Shown: positions 34,160-57,320 of the stretch, piece after piece
Layout: every line of letters begins with the position of its first letter
Position numbering within the stretch: the first letter of the stretch is position 1
DNA from: Thermoplasmata archaeon
GTDB lineage: Archaea > Thermoplasmatota > Thermoplasmata > Lutacidiplasmatales > UBA184
Direction of reading: 5' to 3'
Length of the DNA: 64,000 nucleotides
Assembly (NCBI GenBank): GCA_021817605.1
Contig: JAKAUN010000008.1
Span: 105,561-169,560, forward strand
Translations under genes and position numbers: made by a program
Notes under the pieces: model-generated
Databases searched by the model: none
What the model saw: the letters and a program-made list of their open reading frames with translations, nothing else
Told to the model about the DNA's origin: nothing

Positions 34160-36949
34160 TCAGGAGCAGCCGCTCGTGGAGCCGCAGACGGTACACGCGT
34201 AGCAGGTCCCCGAGCGGACCATGATCCCGCCGCAGACCGCGCAGGAAGGGGCATCCTCGCTCGTCACGAGGCCCTCGGTGAGGGGCTGGGGCGGCTGGGC
34301 GAAGGCGTCCAGGGCCTTCGTTCCGAAGCGGATCGTCTGGGGAGGAGAGGCGGACTTGGTTGCCGGAGCGCCGCCCCCGTTCCCTTCCGCCGGGCCCTCG
34401 AGGCCTATCGCCCGTCGGTCGTCCTCGGTGAGGAACTCGAGGGCGAGCCATCGGGCGACATAGTCCGGGATCGATTTGGCGAAGTGGATCTTCGGGTTGT
34501 TGGTGGCCCCGGCCGGCTCGAACCGAAGGTGCGCGAGCTTGCGGACGAGGTCCTTGAGCGGCACCCCGTGCTGGAGCGCCATCGACATCGAGATCCCGAG
34601 CGAGTCCATGAGGCCGTTGACGGTCGACCCTTCCTTCGTCACCCGGAAGAAGATCTCGCCGGGGCGTCCGTCCGGGTAGAGCCCGACCGTGACGTAGCCG
34701 TCGTGGCCGCCGACCTGGAAGTGGTGCGTGATGGCCTTGCGCTCGTCCGGCAGCCGCTCGCGCGCGACCAGGCGGCCGACCGCGGCGCGGCCGGTGCCCG
34801 CGGTGTCGAACGGCTGCGAGGCCTTGCAGCCGTCACGGTAGAGGGCGACCGACTTGATGCCGAGCCGCCAGGCCTCCTGGTAGATCTTCTCGATGTCCTC
34901 GACGGTCGCGTCGTTGGGGAGGTTGATCGTCTTGGAGGCGCCGCCGGAGAGGAACGGCTGGACGGCGCCGAGCATCTTGAGGTGGCCCATCGGGGAGATC
35001 GTGCGGACCCCGGTGGCGGCGGCGAGCGCGCAGTCGAAGACCGCGAGATCGGCCGGGTCGAGCCCGGGCGCCCCCTCGATCGTCCCGGTCTTCTCGAGGT
35101 GCCCGTTGATCGCCGTGATCTCCCCGGCGGCGTAGCCGAGCGACCTGAGCCCGTCAGGGACCGTGCCGTTGACCATCCTGAGGATGCCGCCGCCGACCAG
35201 GTTCTTGGTCTTGACGAGGGAGAGCTCCGGCTCGAGGCCGAGGGTGTCGCATCCCATCAACAGGCCGATGGTGCCCGTCGGCGCGATGACCGAGATCTGG
35301 GCGTTGCGGTAGCCCCAGAGCTCGCCGGCCTTCACCGTGTCCTGCCATCGGTCGACGGCCAGGCGCGCCAGCGGGGCGAGGCGGGAGTCGGCCGTGGCGA
35401 CCTGCTCGGCGGCCCGGCGGTGCTTGCCCATCACGCGCAGCATCGGCGCGCGGTTCTTCTCGAACCCGGGGAACGGCCCCATCCGCCGCGCGATCTCGCT
35501 CGACATGTGGTAACCCTCGGCAGAGAGGAGCGCCGAGACCGACGTGGCGAGCGTGCGTCCCTCCTCCGAGTCGTAGGCCATCCCCGAATGCATGAGCAGC
35601 GCGCCGAGGTTGGCGTAGCCGAGCCCGAGGGGGCGGAAGTCGTGCGAGTTCTGGGCGATCGTCGCGGTGGGGTAGCTTGACGCGTCGACGACGATCTCCA
35701 TGGCGAGGATCATCGTGCGCACGGCCCCGAGGAAGGAGTTCGCGTCGAACTTCCCCTCCGCGTCCAGGAACTTCATCAGGTTGAGCGAGGCGAGGTTGCA
35801 CGCCGAGTCGTCCAGGAACAGGTACTCGCTGCACGGGTTGGAGGCGTTGATCCTCCCGGAGTTCGGGCAGGTGTGCCAGTCGTTGGTGGTGTCGTCGAAC
35901 TGGACGCCCGGGTCGCCGCACCGCCAGGCAGCGTAGGCGAGCTTGCGCCAGAGCTCGCGGGCCGGGTAGGTCGCGGCGACCGTCTGGTCGGTCCGGTTGA
36001 CCGTCTTCCAGCTGCCGTCGCGGGCGACCGCATCCATGAACGCGTCGGGGATGCGGACGGAGTGGTTCGCGTTCTGGTAGGCGATCGACGCGTAGGCCGA
36101 GTTGCCGTCGGTCCCGTCGAAGTTAGACGAGTAGCCCTCGCGGATGAGCGCCTGGGCCTTCTCCTCCTCCTTGACCTTGCACTCGATGAACTCGAGGATG
36201 TCCGGGTGGTCCATGTTGAGGATGACCATCTTGGCCGCGCGGCGTGTCGTTCCGCCGGACTTGATGACCCCGGCGAGCGCGTCGAACGCCCGCATGAACG
36301 ACACCGGCCCCGAGGCGATCCCGCCTCCGCTCAGCCGCTCGTGGCTTCCGCGAAGGCCCGAAAGGTTCGAGCCCGTGCCGCTTCCGCCCTTGAAAAGGCG
36401 GCCCTCGCTCGTCGCGAGCGCGAGGATCGAGTCCATGTCGTCGGCCACCGACTGGATGAAGCAGGCCGAGCACTGCGGGGGGTCCCGGACGCCGACGTTG
36501 AACCAGACCGGGCTGTTGAACGCCGCCATCTGCTGGACCATGAGGTAGGAGAGGCTCTCCTCGAGCGTCGTCGCCTCCTCGGGGGTGTCAAGGTAGCCGA
36601 GGTCGATCCCCTGGCTCGCGATCCAGTGGCAGACCCTGCGGATCATCCCGTCGACCGACGCTTCCCGTCGGCCCTGGATGACCCGGAAGTACTTCGACGC
36701 CGCGATGTTGACGCTGGTCTCCGACCAGTTCACCGGCGCGCGGATGCCCTTCTGCTCGAAGATCGTCTTCCCTTCGGCGTTCTTGATCAGGGCGTCGTGG
36801 GTCTTCCACTCGACCGTGTCGAACGCCGCCTTGCCTCGCGGGACGAGGCGCGGAACGGGGATGGGGTCACGGCCGACGCGTGCAGAAGAGGCACGTCCGC
36901 CGGCCTCCTCATTCGGTACAGGACGCTTCTTGGATGCTGCCATGAGCAC
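34160..36949 (-). CDS. nrdJ: Adenosylcobalamin-dependent (class II) ribonucleotide reductase
   Basis: FNSPVWFNVGVRDPPQCSACFIQSV...FKGGSGTGSNLSGLRGS...NPCSEYLFLDDSACNLASLNL...APTGTIGLLMGCDTLGLEP; C-terminal Cys4 ribbon. Confidence 0.96.
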   Translation of the reverse strand: MLMAASKKRPVPNEEAGGRASSARVGRDPIPVPRLVPRGKAAFDTVEWKTHDALIKNAEGKTIFEQKGIRAPVNWSETSVNIAASKYFRVIQGRREASVDGMIRRVCHWIASQGIDLGYLDTPEEATTLEESLSYLMVQQMAAFNSPVWFNVGVRDPPQCSACFIQSVADDMDSILALATSEGRLFKGGSGTGSNLSGLRGSHERLSGGGIASGPVSFMRAFDALAGVIKSGGTTRRAAKMVILNMDHPDILEFIECKVKEEEKAQALIREGYSSNFDGTDGNSAYASIAYQNANHSVRIPDAFMDAVARDGSWKTVNRTDQTVAATYPARELWRKLAYAAWRCGDPGVQFDDTTNDWHTCPNSGRINASNPCSEYLFLDDSACNLASLNLMKFLDAEGKFDANSFLGAVRTMILAMEIVVDASSYPTATIAQNSHDFRPLGLGYANLGALLMHSGMAYDSEEGRTLATSVSALLSAEGYHMSSEIARRMGPFPGFEKNRAPMLRVMGKHRRAAEQVATADSRLAPLARLAVDRWQDTVKAGELWGYRNAQISVIAPTGTIGLLMGCDTLGLEPELSLVKTKNLVGGGILRMVNGTVPDGLRSLGYAAGEITAINGHLEKTGTIEGAPGLDPADLAVFDCALAAATGVRTISPMGHLKMLGAVQPFLSGGASKTINLPNDATVEDIEKIYQEAWRLGIKSVALYRDGCKASQPFDTAGTGRAAVGRLVARERLPDERKAITHHFQVGGHDGYVTVGLYPDGRPGEIFFRVTKEGSTVNGLMDSLGISMSMALQHGVPLKDLVRKLAHLRFEPAGATNNPKIHFAKSIPDYVARWLALEFLTEDDRRAIGLEGPAEGNGGGAPATKSASPPQTIRFGTKALDAFAQPPQPLTEGLVTSEDAPSCAVCGGIMVRSGTCYACTVCGSTSGCS

Positions 36950-37005: not shown

Positions 37006-37236
37006 CTAAGTCGCCATCGACCGGGGGCTGAAACGCCCTCGGAAGAGGAGCGTTTCCCCTCGGGAATGGCGGGAAACGGCCGCGGGAAGCACGTCACGGA
37101 ACACTTCGAGAACCCTCCGGGCGGCGGCTACGCGGGTCCGGTATATCTCTGCTAGCTCCGAAATGCGCCCTTCGACGAGCGCGAGGGCTCGGCGACGCGG
37201 CGAATCCGTTCCTTGGACAACCTGCCACGGGAACAT
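37006..37236 (-). CDS. Possible small (76 aa) basic helical protein
   Basis: MFPWQVVQGTDSPRRRALALVEGRISELAEIYRTRVAAARRVLEVFRDVLPAAV...; composition only. Confidence 0.3.
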   Translation of the reverse strand: MFPWQVVQGTDSPRRRALALVEGRISELAEIYRTRVAAARRVLEVFRDVLPAAVSRHSRGETLLFRGRFSPRSMAT

Positions 37237-51608: not shown

Positions 51609-51775
51609 CGCCGCCGCCCGGGGAAGTTGAGGCCGCAGGGGTCTTAGCCTGTATCCTCCCCCGCCCGAACCGGTCAGGTTCGGTGCAAGGGGAGGGGGAG
51701 AGCGGCGGCAGCGCCCGTTGCAGCGCCTCTCCCTCGGGCTTTAGGGGAGAGGGGCCGTCCCGCACCGAGGGGAAC

Positions 51776-52552
51776 GTGGGCGAGCTCCTCCTTGGGACCT
51801 GCGGCTGGGATTATCCCGAGTGGGTCGGCCGGGTCTATCCTCCGCGAGGGGTCGCCGACAAGCTCCGGTTCTACACGAGGCTCTTCCCCATAGTCGAGGT
51901 CGATTCGACGTTCTACCGCCTCCCGCCTCCCTCGGTCGCCGCCTCCTGGGCCCGACGCACCCCCTCCTCGTTCCGGTTCGCGGCGAAGTTCCCGCGGACG
52001 ATCACCCACGATCTGCGGCTGGTGGACACCGATCCCGAGCTCGCGAAGTTCCTCGAGGTGCTCCGCCCGCTGCGTGACGCAGGGAAGTTCGTCGCGGCGC
52101 TCCTCCAGCTGCCTCCTTCGCTGTCGTTCGAGCCCGCGATCGTCCGACGGTTCTACGCGTCGCTTCCCCGCGACCTGCCGGTCGCCGTCGAGTTCCGGGA
52201 GGGCTCCTGGCTCGTCCCCGAGTCCTACGCCCTCCTGCGGGAGTTCGGGCTCGCCCACGTCGTCGTGGACGGGCCGCACCTTCCCATCGTGCTCGAGGTC
52301 ACCGCGCCGTTCGCCTACGTGCGCTGGCACGGGCACGGCCGGAGGATCTGGTACGACTACACCTACTCGGCCGAGGAGCTCTCCGCCTGGGTTCCCCGCC
52401 TGCACGAGCTCGAGCGGAAGGCCACGACGGTCTACGGCTTCTTCAACAACCACTTCCGCGGCGACGCGGCGGTGAACTGCCGGACCCTCGCGGAAGAGCT
52501 CGGCCTACCGGCGCCGTCCGGGAGCCCCCGGCTCACCTCCCTGGACGCGTAG
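51776..52552 (+). CDS. DUF72 (YecE-like) TIM-barrel protein
   Basis: LLGTCGWDYPEWVGRVYPP...KLRFYTRLFPIVEVDSTFYRLP...FRFAAKFPRTITHD...VAVEFREGSW...YVRWHG. Confidence 0.92.
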   Translation: MGELLLGTCGWDYPEWVGRVYPPRGVADKLRFYTRLFPIVEVDSTFYRLPPPSVAASWARRTPSSFRFAAKFPRTITHDLRLVDTDPELAKFLEVLRPLRDAGKFVAALLQLPPSLSFEPAIVRRFYASLPRDLPVAVEFREGSWLVPESYALLREFGLAHVVVDGPHLPIVLEVTAPFAYVRWHGHGRRIWYDYTYSAEELSAWVPRLHELERKATTVYGFFNNHFRGDAAVNCRTLAEELGLPAPSGSPRLTSLDA

Positions 52553-52668
52553 GGGCTCTCCCTCCGCCCCGGCCGACGGCTCGGAACGCCCTGTTACCGG
52601 ACCGTTTCATCGTCCCCTCGGCGGCCGCTTTAGAGCGGTCCGGCCGCTTCTCGCCCCGGAGCATTCTC

Positions 52669-53598
52669 GTGCCCGAGGTCCTTGCCGTCCCGCCATCATC
52701 CGAGCCCCGCGAGCTCGAGCTCGATCTCGAGTCCCAGCCCGAGACCGAGCCCGAGCCCGTCTGGGAGGCCGGGGTCGAGGAGCTCTCCCCGTTCCGTCCC
52801 CAGGAGCGGGCCCCTCGGCCGCGGCTTCCCGGGGTCGAGCCGCCCCTCTCGCGTCGCTCCCCCCGGGGACGCCTCACGCGCCTCTTGCCGACGGAGCCGG
52901 CGCTGTTTCCCTGGATCGCCCGACGCCTCGCCCCGGGCGAGGCGACGGTCTGGGCCGGCCCGCCCCGGGCCGTCCAGGCGCTCCTCGAGCTCCTCTACGC
53001 GGGGAGCGCAGCGTCGGGAGGACGGATCTCCCTCCTCGAAGGGGCCAACCGTTTCGACCCGTACCGTATCGGCGAGCTCGGCCGCTCCCTCGGGGTCGAC
53101 GCGACCGAGACGGTGCGCCGCATCCGCCTCGCCCGCGCCTTCACCGCCTACCAGATGGTCGCCCTGGTCGATCGCTGGGGCGCCGAGGCACGCAGGGGCC
53201 GCCCGACCCTCCTGGTCGGACACGACCTCGCCACGCTCTTCCACGACGAGGAGATCCCCGAGGAGGAGCAGGTCGGCCTCCTCGGTCACGTCGCCCGCTC
53301 CCTCGGCGCCCTCGCCGGGAGGCTCGACGTGCCTCTGCTCCTCACGCTCGGAGCGGACGGGCTCGACGGCTTCCCCTCCTTGGCCGAGGAGGGGCCCCGC
53401 TGGTACGACTACGTCCGCCTTCGACGCGGAGCGTCCACGCTCACGCTGGAGGCGCTGCGCGACGGCGGGCGCTTCACGATCGTTCCGCGGCCGGCCGGCC
53501 AGACCGGTCTCGAGGAGTTCGGCGTCGGTTCCGCCGGGGAGGTGATGGCGTGGGACGCACCGCTCCGACGTACCGCCAAGCGCTCGAGGAGCGTCTGA
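52669..53598 (+). CDS. RadA/RecA-like paralogue lacking a recognisable Walker A Lys
   Basis: LAPGEATVWAGPPRAVQALLELLYAG...GGRISLLEGANRFDPYRIGELGRSLGVDATETVRRIRLARAFTAYQMVALVD matches the RadA core order; the GxxGxGKT position reads GPPRAVQ. Confidence 0.7.
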   Translation: MPEVLAVPPSSEPRELELDLESQPETEPEPVWEAGVEELSPFRPQERAPRPRLPGVEPPLSRRSPRGRLTRLLPTEPALFPWIARRLAPGEATVWAGPPRAVQALLELLYAGSAASGGRISLLEGANRFDPYRIGELGRSLGVDATETVRRIRLARAFTAYQMVALVDRWGAEARRGRPTLLVGHDLATLFHDEEIPEEEQVGLLGHVARSLGALAGRLDVPLLLTLGADGLDGFPSLAEEGPRWYDYVRLRRGASTLTLEALRDGGRFTIVPRPAGQTGLEEFGVGSAGEVMAWDAPLRRTAKRSRSV

Positions 53599-53804
53599 AG
53601 CGCTGGGACGAGTTCGCCCGCCTCCTCACCACGCCGGAGGACCGGGCCGCCTTCGATCTCGTCCGCACCGCGGCCCGTCGCTACGTCGCCCAGGCGACGT
53701 ATGTCGGGAGCCCCGACCTCCTCGAGTCGATCCTCCTCTCGGTCCTCACCGATCTTGCCGGCAAGCTCGCCTCCTCGCCGGCAGCCCGCGGCTCTTCCCG
53801 CTGA
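53550..53804 (+). CDS. Small helical protein encoded between the RadA-like and PolB2 genes
   Basis: 84 aa; overlaps the upstream ORF by 49 nt, 2 nt from polB2. Confidence 0.7.
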   Translation: MGRTAPTYRQALEERLKRWDEFARLLTTPEDRAAFDLVRTAARRYVAQATYVGSPDLLESILLSVLTDLAGKLASSPAARGSSR

Positions 53805-53806
53805 CC

Positions 53807-56134
53807 GTGGGCGGCCCGTCGCCGCCGCACGACGGCTGGCTGCTCGACATCACCGAGAGCTCCGACGGCCGCTCGGTCGTCCTGTGGGTGAAGGAGCGGC
53901 AGAGCGGCCGCGTCCGTCGCACGGCGGTCGAGTTCCGTCCCCCGTTCTTCGTCACGGGGCCTCGGGCGGAGCTCTCCGCGCTCGCCGGCCGCCTCCGCGG
54001 GCTGCCCGTCGTCGCCTCCGTGGAGCTCGGGAGCGGGCGCCTGTCGCTCTTCGACGCCCGGCCGCGGCCCCAGCTTTCGGTCGTGCCGGCCGAGAACCCC
54101 GGACGCCGCGCGCTCGCCCGGACGATCGACGCCCTGGGCCGCTACGAGGCGTTCACCCTCTACGACGTCGACCTCTCGCCCCCGCAGCTCTACCACCTCG
54201 CCCACGACCTCTACCCGTTCGCCCCCGTCACGGGGAAAGGCGCCGAGCTCCGTGCGACCGAGCCGGCCGAGACGATCGACTACGCGATGCCTCCGCTCTC
54301 CGTGGCGCGGTTCGAGATCGCCTTGAAGGGCGAGCGTCGGGGCCGGCTGCCTCCGCCGGACGGACGGATCGGCTCGGTTCGTGTGGGAGATCTCACCGTC
54401 GAGGGCGAGGACGAGGCCTCGGTCCTCCGCGCGCTGGTCGACGAGCTCGCCCGCAGCGAGCCCGATGTCCTGCTGAGCCGGGGCGGGGACGCCTTCGACC
54501 TCCCCTGGCTCTACCGACGGGCTCTGGCCTGCGGTCTCACGCCGAAAGAGTTCGTCCTCGGCCGGGAGCCGGCGCCGTTCAGGGCGGCGCGGCCGGCCCG
54601 CTCGTTCGAGTCGTACGGGCGCGTCCTTTACCGCTCGGCGCTCTACCCCCTGCCGGGACGGTTCCACATCGACCGGCAGAACTCCTTCCTCTTCGACGAC
54701 TCCGAGCTCGCCGGCCTCGTGGACGCCGCCCGCCTCTCCCGCCTCTCGCTCCAGACGGTCGTCCGCCAGTCGCCGGGGACCTGCTTTACCGCGATGGAGA
54801 TGGCCGAGGCGCTGCGCCTCGGCGTCCGCGTCCCCTGGAAGAAGAACCGTCCCGAGGAGTTCCGCACGGGCGAGGAGCTGGTCGCCGCCGACCGCGGCGG
54901 GGTGATCTTCCTCCCGCCGGTCGGCGTCCACGACCGCATCGACGAGTTCGATTTCGCGAGCCTCTACCCGCACATCATGGTCCGCAAGAACCTCTCGGCG
55001 GAGACCCTGGAGTGCCGCTGCTGCCCGAAGAGCCCGATCCGGGCCCCCGGGCTCGGCTACCGCTCCTGCACGCGGCGGCGCGGCCTCATCCCCCGCACCC
55101 TCGCTCCCCTCCTCGAGCGGCGTCTCGCCTACAAGGCGGCGCTCAAGCAGCCCGGGCTCCCTCCCGCGAGGGCCGAGGAGCTAAGCCGACGGGTCAAGAT
55201 GCTCAAGTGGATCCTGGTGACCGCCTTCGGCTACCAGGGCTACCGCAACGCCCGCTTCGGACGGATCGAGTGCCACGAGGCGATCAACGCCTACGCCCGC
55301 GAGCTCCTGGCCGCCCTCCTCGCCGAGGCGGAGCGGGCCGGCTACCGGGTCGTCCACGGGATCGTCGACTCGCTCTGGCTGCGTCCGATCGACCCCGATC
55401 GGCCGCCCGAGCCGGAGGAGTTCGCCCGCAACGCGAGCGAGCGGTTCGACCTTCCTCTCAGCTACGAGGGCCGCTACCGCTGGATCGTCTTCTTGCCGGC
55501 GGTCACGCACGGCCTCGGCGTCCCGAACCGCTACTACGGCCTCTACGAGCACGGGGAGTACAAGCTCCGCGGGATCGGCGGCCGTCGCCACGACACCCCC
55601 GGCCTTCTCCGGCGCTTCGAGCTCGAGGTTCTCGATCTGTTCCGCCGGGCCCCCGACGCCGAGGGGGTCCGCGCCCTCCTTCCCCGCGCGCTCGCCCGCG
55701 CCGACCTGTTCGCCGCGAAGGTGCGGGAGCTCTCCTGGCCGGTGGACGAGCTCGTGATCTCCCACCGGCTCGGCCAGCCTCCCTCCGCCTTCGTCACGTT
55801 CACCGACTCGGTCGCCGCGCTCCGCCAGCTCCACGACGCCGGGGCCGTCCGCTCCGCCGGCGAGATCGTCCGCTTCGTCCTGCTCGACCGCAAGAGCCGC
55901 TCGTTCCGCGACCGGGTCCGGGCCGCCGAGCTCCTGGACGGGAGCGAGCGCTACGACGCGGACGCCTACCTCGAGCTGCTCGCGCGCGAGGCGGAAACGC
56001 TCCTCGCGCCCCTCGGGGTCCGACGCGCCGAGCTCCTCGAGCGCTGGGGCGTGGCCGAGCCGCTGCCGCGGGCGCCGTACCGCTCCCCGGAGCGTCGGGC
56101 GCAGCGCTCTCTCCCCGGCGTCCCCTCGGGATAG
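53807..56134 (+). CDS. Divergent family B DNA polymerase (PolB2-type)
   Basis: Motif A DFASLYPHIMVRKNLSAETLEC, Cys cluster CRCC...SC, motif B KMLKWILVTAFGYQGYRNARFG, motif C VVHGIVDSLWL. Confidence 0.85.
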   Translation: MGGPSPPHDGWLLDITESSDGRSVVLWVKERQSGRVRRTAVEFRPPFFVTGPRAELSALAGRLRGLPVVASVELGSGRLSLFDARPRPQLSVVPAENPGRRALARTIDALGRYEAFTLYDVDLSPPQLYHLAHDLYPFAPVTGKGAELRATEPAETIDYAMPPLSVARFEIALKGERRGRLPPPDGRIGSVRVGDLTVEGEDEASVLRALVDELARSEPDVLLSRGGDAFDLPWLYRRALACGLTPKEFVLGREPAPFRAARPARSFESYGRVLYRSALYPLPGRFHIDRQNSFLFDDSELAGLVDAARLSRLSLQTVVRQSPGTCFTAMEMAEALRLGVRVPWKKNRPEEFRTGEELVAADRGGVIFLPPVGVHDRIDEFDFASLYPHIMVRKNLSAETLECRCCPKSPIRAPGLGYRSCTRRRGLIPRTLAPLLERRLAYKAALKQPGLPPARAEELSRRVKMLKWILVTAFGYQGYRNARFGRIECHEAINAYARELLAALLAEAERAGYRVVHGIVDSLWLRPIDPDRPPEPEEFARNASERFDLPLSYEGRYRWIVFLPAVTHGLGVPNRYYGLYEHGEYKLRGIGGRRHDTPGLLRRFELEVLDLFRRAPDAEGVRALLPRALARADLFAAKVRELSWPVDELVISHRLGQPPSAFVTFTDSVAALRQLHDAGAVRSAGEIVRFVLLDRKSRSFRDRVRAAELLDGSERYDADAYLELLAREAETLLAPLGVRRAELLERWGVAEPLPRAPYRSPERRAQRSLPGVPSG

Positions 56135-56198: not shown

Positions 56199-57320
56199 GT
56201 GAGCGTGCGAGGAGCGCATCTCCCGTCGCGCGCACGGGAGCGTCCGACGGCACAATCCGCGAAGGAGCGCAAGGTCGCCGCGGTGCTCGCCGCCCGCACG
56301 GGCGACCCGTCCCCCGAGGTTCGTCGGGCGATCGCGGGGCTCCTGGGGGAGCTCGGAGGACCCGAGGCCCGCCGGGGGGTCGACCGCCTTCTCCGCGACC
56401 GCTCCGACCGCGTGCGTCGGGAGGCGGTCCTCGCCCTCGGGCGACGCACGGGGGCACGCGAGCTCGCCCGTCTGCGCGGCTTCCTCGACGACCCGTCCGC
56501 CCGCGTACGGGCGGGAGCAGCCGTGGCGCTCGGCCGTCGGCGCGACCGCGCGGCGGTCGACCCGCTGCTCCGTCGGCTCGCCGCCCCGGGGACGTGGGAG
56601 AAGCCGTCGGTCCTGGTCGCCCTCGGGCGGATCGGCGACCGACGGTCGATACCCGCTCTGGTCGCCCACGCGGGGTCGTCGGTCCGCTGGCTGAGGGTCT
56701 GCGCGGTCCATGCGCTCGCCGAGATCGGCGGGCGCGAGGCCCGTCGGGTCGCCCGAGCCCATCTCGCGGACGCGGCCTGGTCGGTCCGTGGTGCCGCCGC
56801 CGCGGCCCTCGGACGGGTCGGGACTCGGGCGGACCTCGCCTCGCTCCTCCGTCTCCTCGCCGATCCGCATCCCTGGCCGCGACGGGGGGCGGCCCGGGCC
56901 CTCGGGGAGCTGCGCTACCGCGCGGCGGCTCGGCCGCTCCGCAGGGCGCTCGGCGACCCGTCGCCGGACGTCCGCCTCGCGGCGGTCTGGGCCCTCGCCG
57001 AGCTACGGGACCTGCGGGCCCGTGCCCCGATCGCCCGCCTGCTCGCGAGCTGCCGGCTGCCCGGCGAGGCGCCGACCCTTCCTCGATCCGCCGAGGCCCC
57101 GCTCGTCACCGACGCCGAGGACCGCCTCTTCGATGCGAGCGTCCTTGCGCTGTGCCGGCTGACGGCGGGAAAGCCGGACCGGCGGGTGGCCCGCGCCCTC
57201 GCCCGGGCCCGGGAGCGTCTCGGCCCCGCGGGGCTCGATCGAAAGGTCCGGGCTGCGTTCCCTGCCACCGCGTCCGAGGCGTCGTTCCCGACCTTCCGCT
57301 CCCTGCTCGGGTCGAGCTAA
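56199..57320 (+). CDS. HEAT/PBS-lyase repeat protein
   Basis: Repeated DPSPEVRRAIAGLLGELGGPEA / SDRVRREAVLALGRR / DPSARVRAGAAVALGRR units. Confidence 0.85.
   Translation: MSVRGAHLPSRARERPTAQSAKERKVAAVLAARTGDPSPEVRRAIAGLLGELGGPEARRGVDRLLRDRSDRVRREAVLALGRRTGARELARLRGFLDDPSARVRAGAAVALGRRRDRAAVDPLLRRLAAPGTWEKPSVLVALGRIGDRRSIPALVAHAGSSVRWLRVCAVHALAEIGGREARRVARAHLADAAWSVRGAAAAALGRVGTRADLASLLRLLADPHPWPRRGAARALGELRYRAAARPLRRALGDPSPDVRLAAVWALAELRDLRARAPIARLLASCRLPGEAPTLPRSAEAPLVTDAEDRLFDASVLALCRLTAGKPDRRVARALARARERLGPAGLDRKVRAAFPATASEASFPTFRSLLGSS

Follow-up and report, generated by a model that had tools for sequence, protein, structure and literature searches.

Organization of the locus

Three genes are adjacent on the plus strand of the window (the whole stretch of 64,000 nucleotides that was analyzed): iRadA (gene 1, 52669-53598), PPB2 (gene 2, 53550-53804) and PolB2 (gene 3, 53807-56134), which encode proteins of 309, 84 and 775 aa, respectively. 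iRadA overlaps PPB2 by 49 nt and a gap of 2 nt separates PPB2 from PolB2, so that the tight packing reported in the first-pass annotation was recovered to the base. Their adjacency on one strand corresponds to the gene order of the PolB2 mutasome. The genome comprises 1.75 Mb in 16 contigs, of which contig 14 carries the window; MAGs under the names Thermoplasmata archaeon, UBA184 and Candidatus Lutacidiplasma are its nearest named relatives (for the description of the Lutacidiplasma order, see PMC9287336).

The upstream neighbour of the operon encodes a DUF72 family protein (51683..52552, plus strand; Pfam PF01904, E=1.7e-63), which is found at the same place in nearly all congeners. According to PMC11791011, DUF72 is enriched near polB2. 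On the other side, 64 nt downstream of PolB2 and on the same strand, lies a gene for a HEAT-repeat protein (56199-57320). A relative of it follows PolB2 in most congeners with sequence at that place, and it does not figure among the neighbours named in the available part of PMC11791011.

iRadA is a RadA paralogue without ATPase residues

Gene 1 had been described as a RadA paralogue without Walker A. The Pfam Rad51 match to iRadA is sub-threshold (E 0.0047). Using phmmer against the PDB, the single sequence matched P. furiosus RadA (E=4.7e-7), and a profile built from 21 relatives matched RadA/Rad51 with E=8e-15. AlphaFold, run on the family alignment, gave pLDDT>90 over about residues 70-270, and the top Foldseek matches of this model were all RAD51, RadA or RAD51 paralogues (E about 1e-11 to 1e-12). 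The protein thus has the RadA/RAD51 fold, and its description as a RadA paralogue holds.

Where RadA has GxxGxGKT/S, the P-loop of iRadA reads GPPRAVQ, as previously noted, and GK[TS] is restored at this position in no congener. In the alignment with RadA, a His occupies the place of the Walker B Asp and an Ala that of the catalytic Glu (TEN/TEG motif). Since the first ~65 residues are of low confidence in the AlphaFold model, the RadA N-terminal domain is missing. A RadA fold devoid of both the ATPase residues and this domain is what characterizes iRadA in the mutasome. Judged from its sequence, iRadA is a catalytically inactive, non-ATPase RadA/Rad51 paralogue.

Near the C-terminus, residues 278-284 (53500..53520, plus strand) form a clamp (PCNA)-binding-like motif, QTGLEEF. 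In all 22 iRadA sequences reaching the C-terminal region it takes the form Qxx[LIM]xx[FY], with Q278 invariant. A clamp-binding motif at a matching position of the iRadA C-terminus is described in PMC11791011. In PolB2 mutasomes this motif is optional and may lie at the C-terminus of iRadA or of PolB2; here it is iRadA that carries it.

PPB2 has the MGRT N-terminus

As had been proposed, gene 2 encodes a helical protein of exactly 84 aa, for which AlphaFold predicts three helices (8-25, 29-48 and 57-75). It is an arCOG07300-like small helical protein that starts with MGRTAPTYR, and G2, R3, P6, T7, R9 and W19 are invariant across 22 relatives. The published signature of PPB2, as given in PMC11791011, is MGRT with conserved Arg3 and Arg9. 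Both the MGRT N-terminus and the three helices are thus found here. The same source states that PPB2 resembles sigma factors. With our model of PPB2 (75 pLDDT), the search for a PDB fold match returned nothing significant, the SigE N-terminal domain being listed at E 6.3 only. A PHROGs search gave weak matches alone for both iRadA and PPB2.

PolB2 keeps residues of the polymerase motifs and has lost those of proofreading

The product of gene 3 scored 398 bits against NCBIfam PRK05761.1-4, under the model cut-off of 692. It had been called a family B polymerase with PolB2-like changes, and our alignments bear this out in the polymerase motifs, in the D(K/R) motif and in the exonuclease. Motif A retains its Asp (D382) and motif B its Lys (K467), both of them conserved. 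Motif C is H517-G-I-V-D521 (HGIVDS) in place of YxDTD; its second Asp is kept, and the H and D are invariant in 16 relatives. HxxxD is the PolB2 form of motif C (PMC8764526). Ahead of the palm domain, D289-R290 forms the D(K/R) motif, with D289 invariant and the second residue varying in a few relatives. Exo I FDIE is aligned with FEIA, which is variable among relatives, and no conserved Asp is found at Exo II. As read from this alignment, the exonuclease motifs are decayed and their active-site residues lost.

The first Asp of motif C is an Ile in this PolB2, as would fit an alternative in which the protein is essentially structural, without DNA synthesis, and the trio serves the regulation of replication or stalled forks; inactivation and a role in replication were proposed by Makarova 2014 (PMC4104785), when the active site looked dead. 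However, conservation extends to the Asp of motif A, the Lys of motif B and the second Asp of motif C, and robust polymerase and extender activity is known from Sulfolobus Dpo2, whose motif C is likewise HxxxD (PMC8764526). We therefore consider a non-synthesizing PolB2 very unlikely.

Two further features of PolB2 were observed. C403, C405 and C421 are invariant and C406 is nearly so (residues 403-421, 55013-55069), a possible metal or disulfide site. At the C-terminus (56038-56131), congeners keep Q-x-x-[L/M] without the aromatic residue of the clamp motif, so that the motif in iRadA is the fuller one.

The trio is conserved in related genomes

PolB2 was found in at least 20/25 sampled genomes of the genus and is patchy in the class. 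Within the genus, the order DUF72-iRadA-PPB2-PolB2 is syntenic, and the trio with its overlap is kept in about 20 congeners. A genome-wide scan of other MAGs gave 80 PolB2 loci, most of them with adjacent iRadA and PPB2 matches, including in Methanomassiliicoccales MAGs. At three of these loci (L198, L218 and L224), all of this clade, neither iRadA nor PPB2 lies within 3.5 kb of PolB2, or within the shorter stretch left before a contig end, and the PolB2 genes there are perhaps orphan or rearranged copies; locus L214 is interrupted by a contig end. All three frames are under coding constraint, given that about 20 congeners and most of the 80 other loci keep the trio, and its association is not due to chance. 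The conservation in relatives on which the initial proposal depended is thus present.

The trio corresponds to the known PolB2 mutasome

Taken together, we assign the three genes, with a probability of about 0.9, to a translesion operon, the PolB2 mutasome, in a Thermoplasmata archaeon of Lutacidiplasmatales/UBA184 type. The first-pass annotation had presented the cassette as a new candidate archaeal mutasome. This novelty does not stand: the iRadA-PPB2-PolB2 operon was first reported by Makarova 2014 (PMC4104785), and the PolB2 mutasome was developed and modelled in Timinskas 2025 (PMC11791011). The trio is an already known, textbook PolB2 mutasome and no new system. What it adds is a well-behaved Thermoplasmata example.

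Compared with the mutasome as described in PMC11791011 and PMC4104785, the window has the same gene order, MGRT arm, HxxxD, D(K/R) and decayed exonuclease, as well as a RadA fold without ATPase residues, a clamp motif at the iRadA C-terminus and a DUF72 neighbour. It differs from this published description by the low-confidence N-terminal extension of ~65 residues in iRadA and by the 49-nt overlap of iRadA and PPB2. With Sulfolobus Dpo2 (PMC8764526, PMC7390963) it shares the HxxxD of motif C and the loss of the proofreading residues. The Sulfolobus PolB2s are the smallest PolB2s (PMC8764526), while the PolB2 analyzed here has 775 aa.

By analogy with published work on homologues, from which damage induction, extender activity and the predicted heteropentameric complex are all taken, the cassette would act as follows. 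DNA damage would lead to transcription of the mutasome operon, as in Sulfolobus, where this operon is damage-induced (PMC11791011, PMC7390963). PolB2, with its decayed proofreading domain, would extend mispaired primer ends past lesions, and a PPB2 trimer would place the MGRT arm beside the PolB2 active site. The non-ATPase iRadA would dock on PolB2, its C-terminal QxxLxxF tethering the complex to the PCNA clamp. The earlier suggestion of a translesion module with a non-ATPase RadA-like adaptor agrees, on this analogy, with the PolB2-PPB2-iRadA model in PMC11791011 and with the Sulfolobus Dpo2 experiments (PMC7390963, PMC8764526). The genome also encodes PolB3, a Y-family polymerase and two other Rad51-family genes, one a strong RadA match and one of 237 aa. 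The presence of the Y-family polymerase argues against a sole bypass role of PolB2, which is thus not the only bypass enzyme.

In ImuA'-ImuB-DnaE2, a RecA-like accessory protein is encoded with an error-prone polymerase; the polymerase is of the C family, ImuB is an inactive Y-family adaptor and control is exerted by LexA. The parallel with this system, drawn in the first-pass annotation, stands for the pairing of a RecA-like accessory protein with an error-prone polymerase and fails for the polymerase itself, since gene 3 belongs to family B and not to family C. In the literature, the nearest bacterial analogue is argued to be the E. coli Pol V mutasome (UmuD'2C-RecA), with which PMC11791011 draws the parallel of a polymerase, a small oligomeric partner and a RecA-family protein. 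It differs in that its polymerase is Y-family, its RecA is active and its small subunit is unrelated.

A palindromic promoter element is common to iRadA and nrdJ

Upstream of iRadA, we found an inverted repeat, GGAACG-N14-CGTTTCA (52583..52609, plus strand), conserved in the intergenic regions of congeners and a putative operator of the mutasome operon. A TATA-like box, CTTTAGAG (52628..52635, plus strand), lies 18 nt beyond the repeat, leaves 33 nt to the iRadA start, and is aligned across congeners. In the alignment of DUF72-iRadA intergenic regions, this element reads GRAACG-N12-16-YGTTTCA, followed after 17-19 nt by the TATA-like CTTTAGAG. A second copy of the repeat, GAAACGCTCCTCTTCCGAGGGCGTTTCA on the minus strand (37029..37056), is located 15.5 kb from the mutasome, upstream of nrdJ (34160..36949, minus strand), which encodes a vitamin B12-dependent ribonucleotide reductase (NF005122, 1245.8 bits, cut-off 859). 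Here too a TATA-like sequence, CTTAG (37006..37010, minus strand), lies 18 nt after the repeat, the same spacing as in the mutasome promoter.

A first strict operator scan of the genome itself gave 12 sites, mostly within ORFs; signal was parted from noise by genus-wide comparison only. In the genus-wide search (41 genomes), sites recur at two genes, iRadA and nrdJ, and the reversed-pattern control gave 0 sites in the same 41 genomes. Because this set had been picked by the dyad pattern itself, we collected unbiased promoter sets without it, using PolB2 homology for iRadA and NrdJ homology for nrdJ. The dyad was present at >=12/13 positions in 47/58 iRadA promoters (0.2 expected from dinucleotide shuffles) and in 21/29 nrdJ promoters (0 expected), and at >=11/13 in all 29/29 nrdJ promoters (1.25 expected), counts that include related genomes and are not independent events. 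DUF72 promoters had it in 0/36 cases. Its distance to the TATA-like box is 17-18 nt in 41/51 iRadA promoters and 17-19 nt in 21/29 nrdJ promoters. In three nrdJ promoters the two half-sites have changed in step (GCAAC...GTTGC), a pattern in keeping with recognition by a symmetric dimer. Among the genomes tested, the nrdJ element is confined to this genus and one sister genus; it is absent in the other families of the class that were searched (L284-L292).

Such dyads could be terminators of transcription, or palindromes that arose by chance in a GC-rich genome. Some nrdJ copies are indeed part of more extended hairpins, and in several congeners (L089, L091, L108, L119 and L122) a third group of sites, possibly a terminator hairpin, follows directly on the 3' end of a gene for an HxlR-like regulator. 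Against this explanation stand the fixed spacing of 17-19 nt between dyad and TATA-like box at two unrelated promoters, the near-zero shuffle expectations, the DUF72 promoters and the reversed-pattern control, and we regard it as highly improbable.

The shared element points to a possible small damage regulon

The dyad common to the two promoters suggests a small damage regulon of dNTP supply and lesion bypass. At the mutasome operon and at nrdJ alike, a putative dimeric regulator would recognize the dyad GAAACG...CGTTTC, which precedes the TATA box, and the shared dyad would couple dNTP supply to lesion bypass. Resting on homology, the mutasome assignment is secure; for the regulon there is a strong statistical pattern and, behind it, a putative regulator. 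The conserved palindromic element common to the mutasome and nrdJ looks to be the new part of the locus: no palindromic operator shared with nrdJ is mentioned in the available parts of PMC11791011 and PMC4104785, and our search of papers open without subscription returned no earlier account of such a regulon. What the literature searched tells about damage responses in archaea comes chiefly from Sulfolobales, via Orc1-2 and ANTTTC. A conserved dyad that links an error-prone polymerase with dNTP supply in an archaeal lineage unrelated to these gives work on a damage regulon a concrete cis-element that can be tested and a means to fish for its regulator, and in this respect matters more than the cassette itself.

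As for candidate regulators, LexA is not known from archaea. No ATP-cone protein (PF03477) was matched in the genome, while 12/14 control genomes were positive; we conclude that the genome encodes no NrdR, the regulator of the NrdR regulon. The genome has two full-length Orc1/Cdc6 genes, one of them, at C12:28130-29173, being divergent, and the dyad, which upstream of these genes would have indicated autoregulation as in Sulfolobus, is absent from both.

In Saccharolobus, Orc1-2 binds ANTTTC as the DNA damage response element (PMC9738581). The window shares with the Saccharolobus islandicus system the TTTC core, and ANTTTC itself is present at mutasome promoters of distant Thermoplasmatota: ANTTTC-N2-8-CYCYCC was found in 11/29 upstream regions, mostly of distant relatives (0.15 expected), at a position corresponding to the dyad of the mutasome promoter. 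The half-site in the window is CGTTTC and not ANTTTC, and it is arranged as a dyad, so that the link to the Orc1-2 system is a lead and not membership. Our tentative proposal, which we place slightly short of an even chance, is that in Lutacidiplasmatales-type archaea one regulator, binding the dyad 17-19 nt before the TATA box, would switch on nrdJ and the PolB2 mutasome without NrdR or LexA, the dyad being akin to the crenarchaeal ANTTTC and part of a common archaeal damage response that would predate the lineage split.

The presence of the dyad in every nrdJ promoter at >=11/13 would also fit a nucleotide-starvation or redox/B12 switch for the ribonucleotide reductase that also controls the mutasome, and not a damage response. 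This alternative is unlikely in our view, if clearly less so than terminators or chance: the genome is without an ATP-cone protein and hence without NrdR, the Sulfolobus mutasome operon is damage-induced (PMC7390963, PMC11791011), and the mutasome promoters of distant relatives carry the damage-response hexamer ANTTTC.
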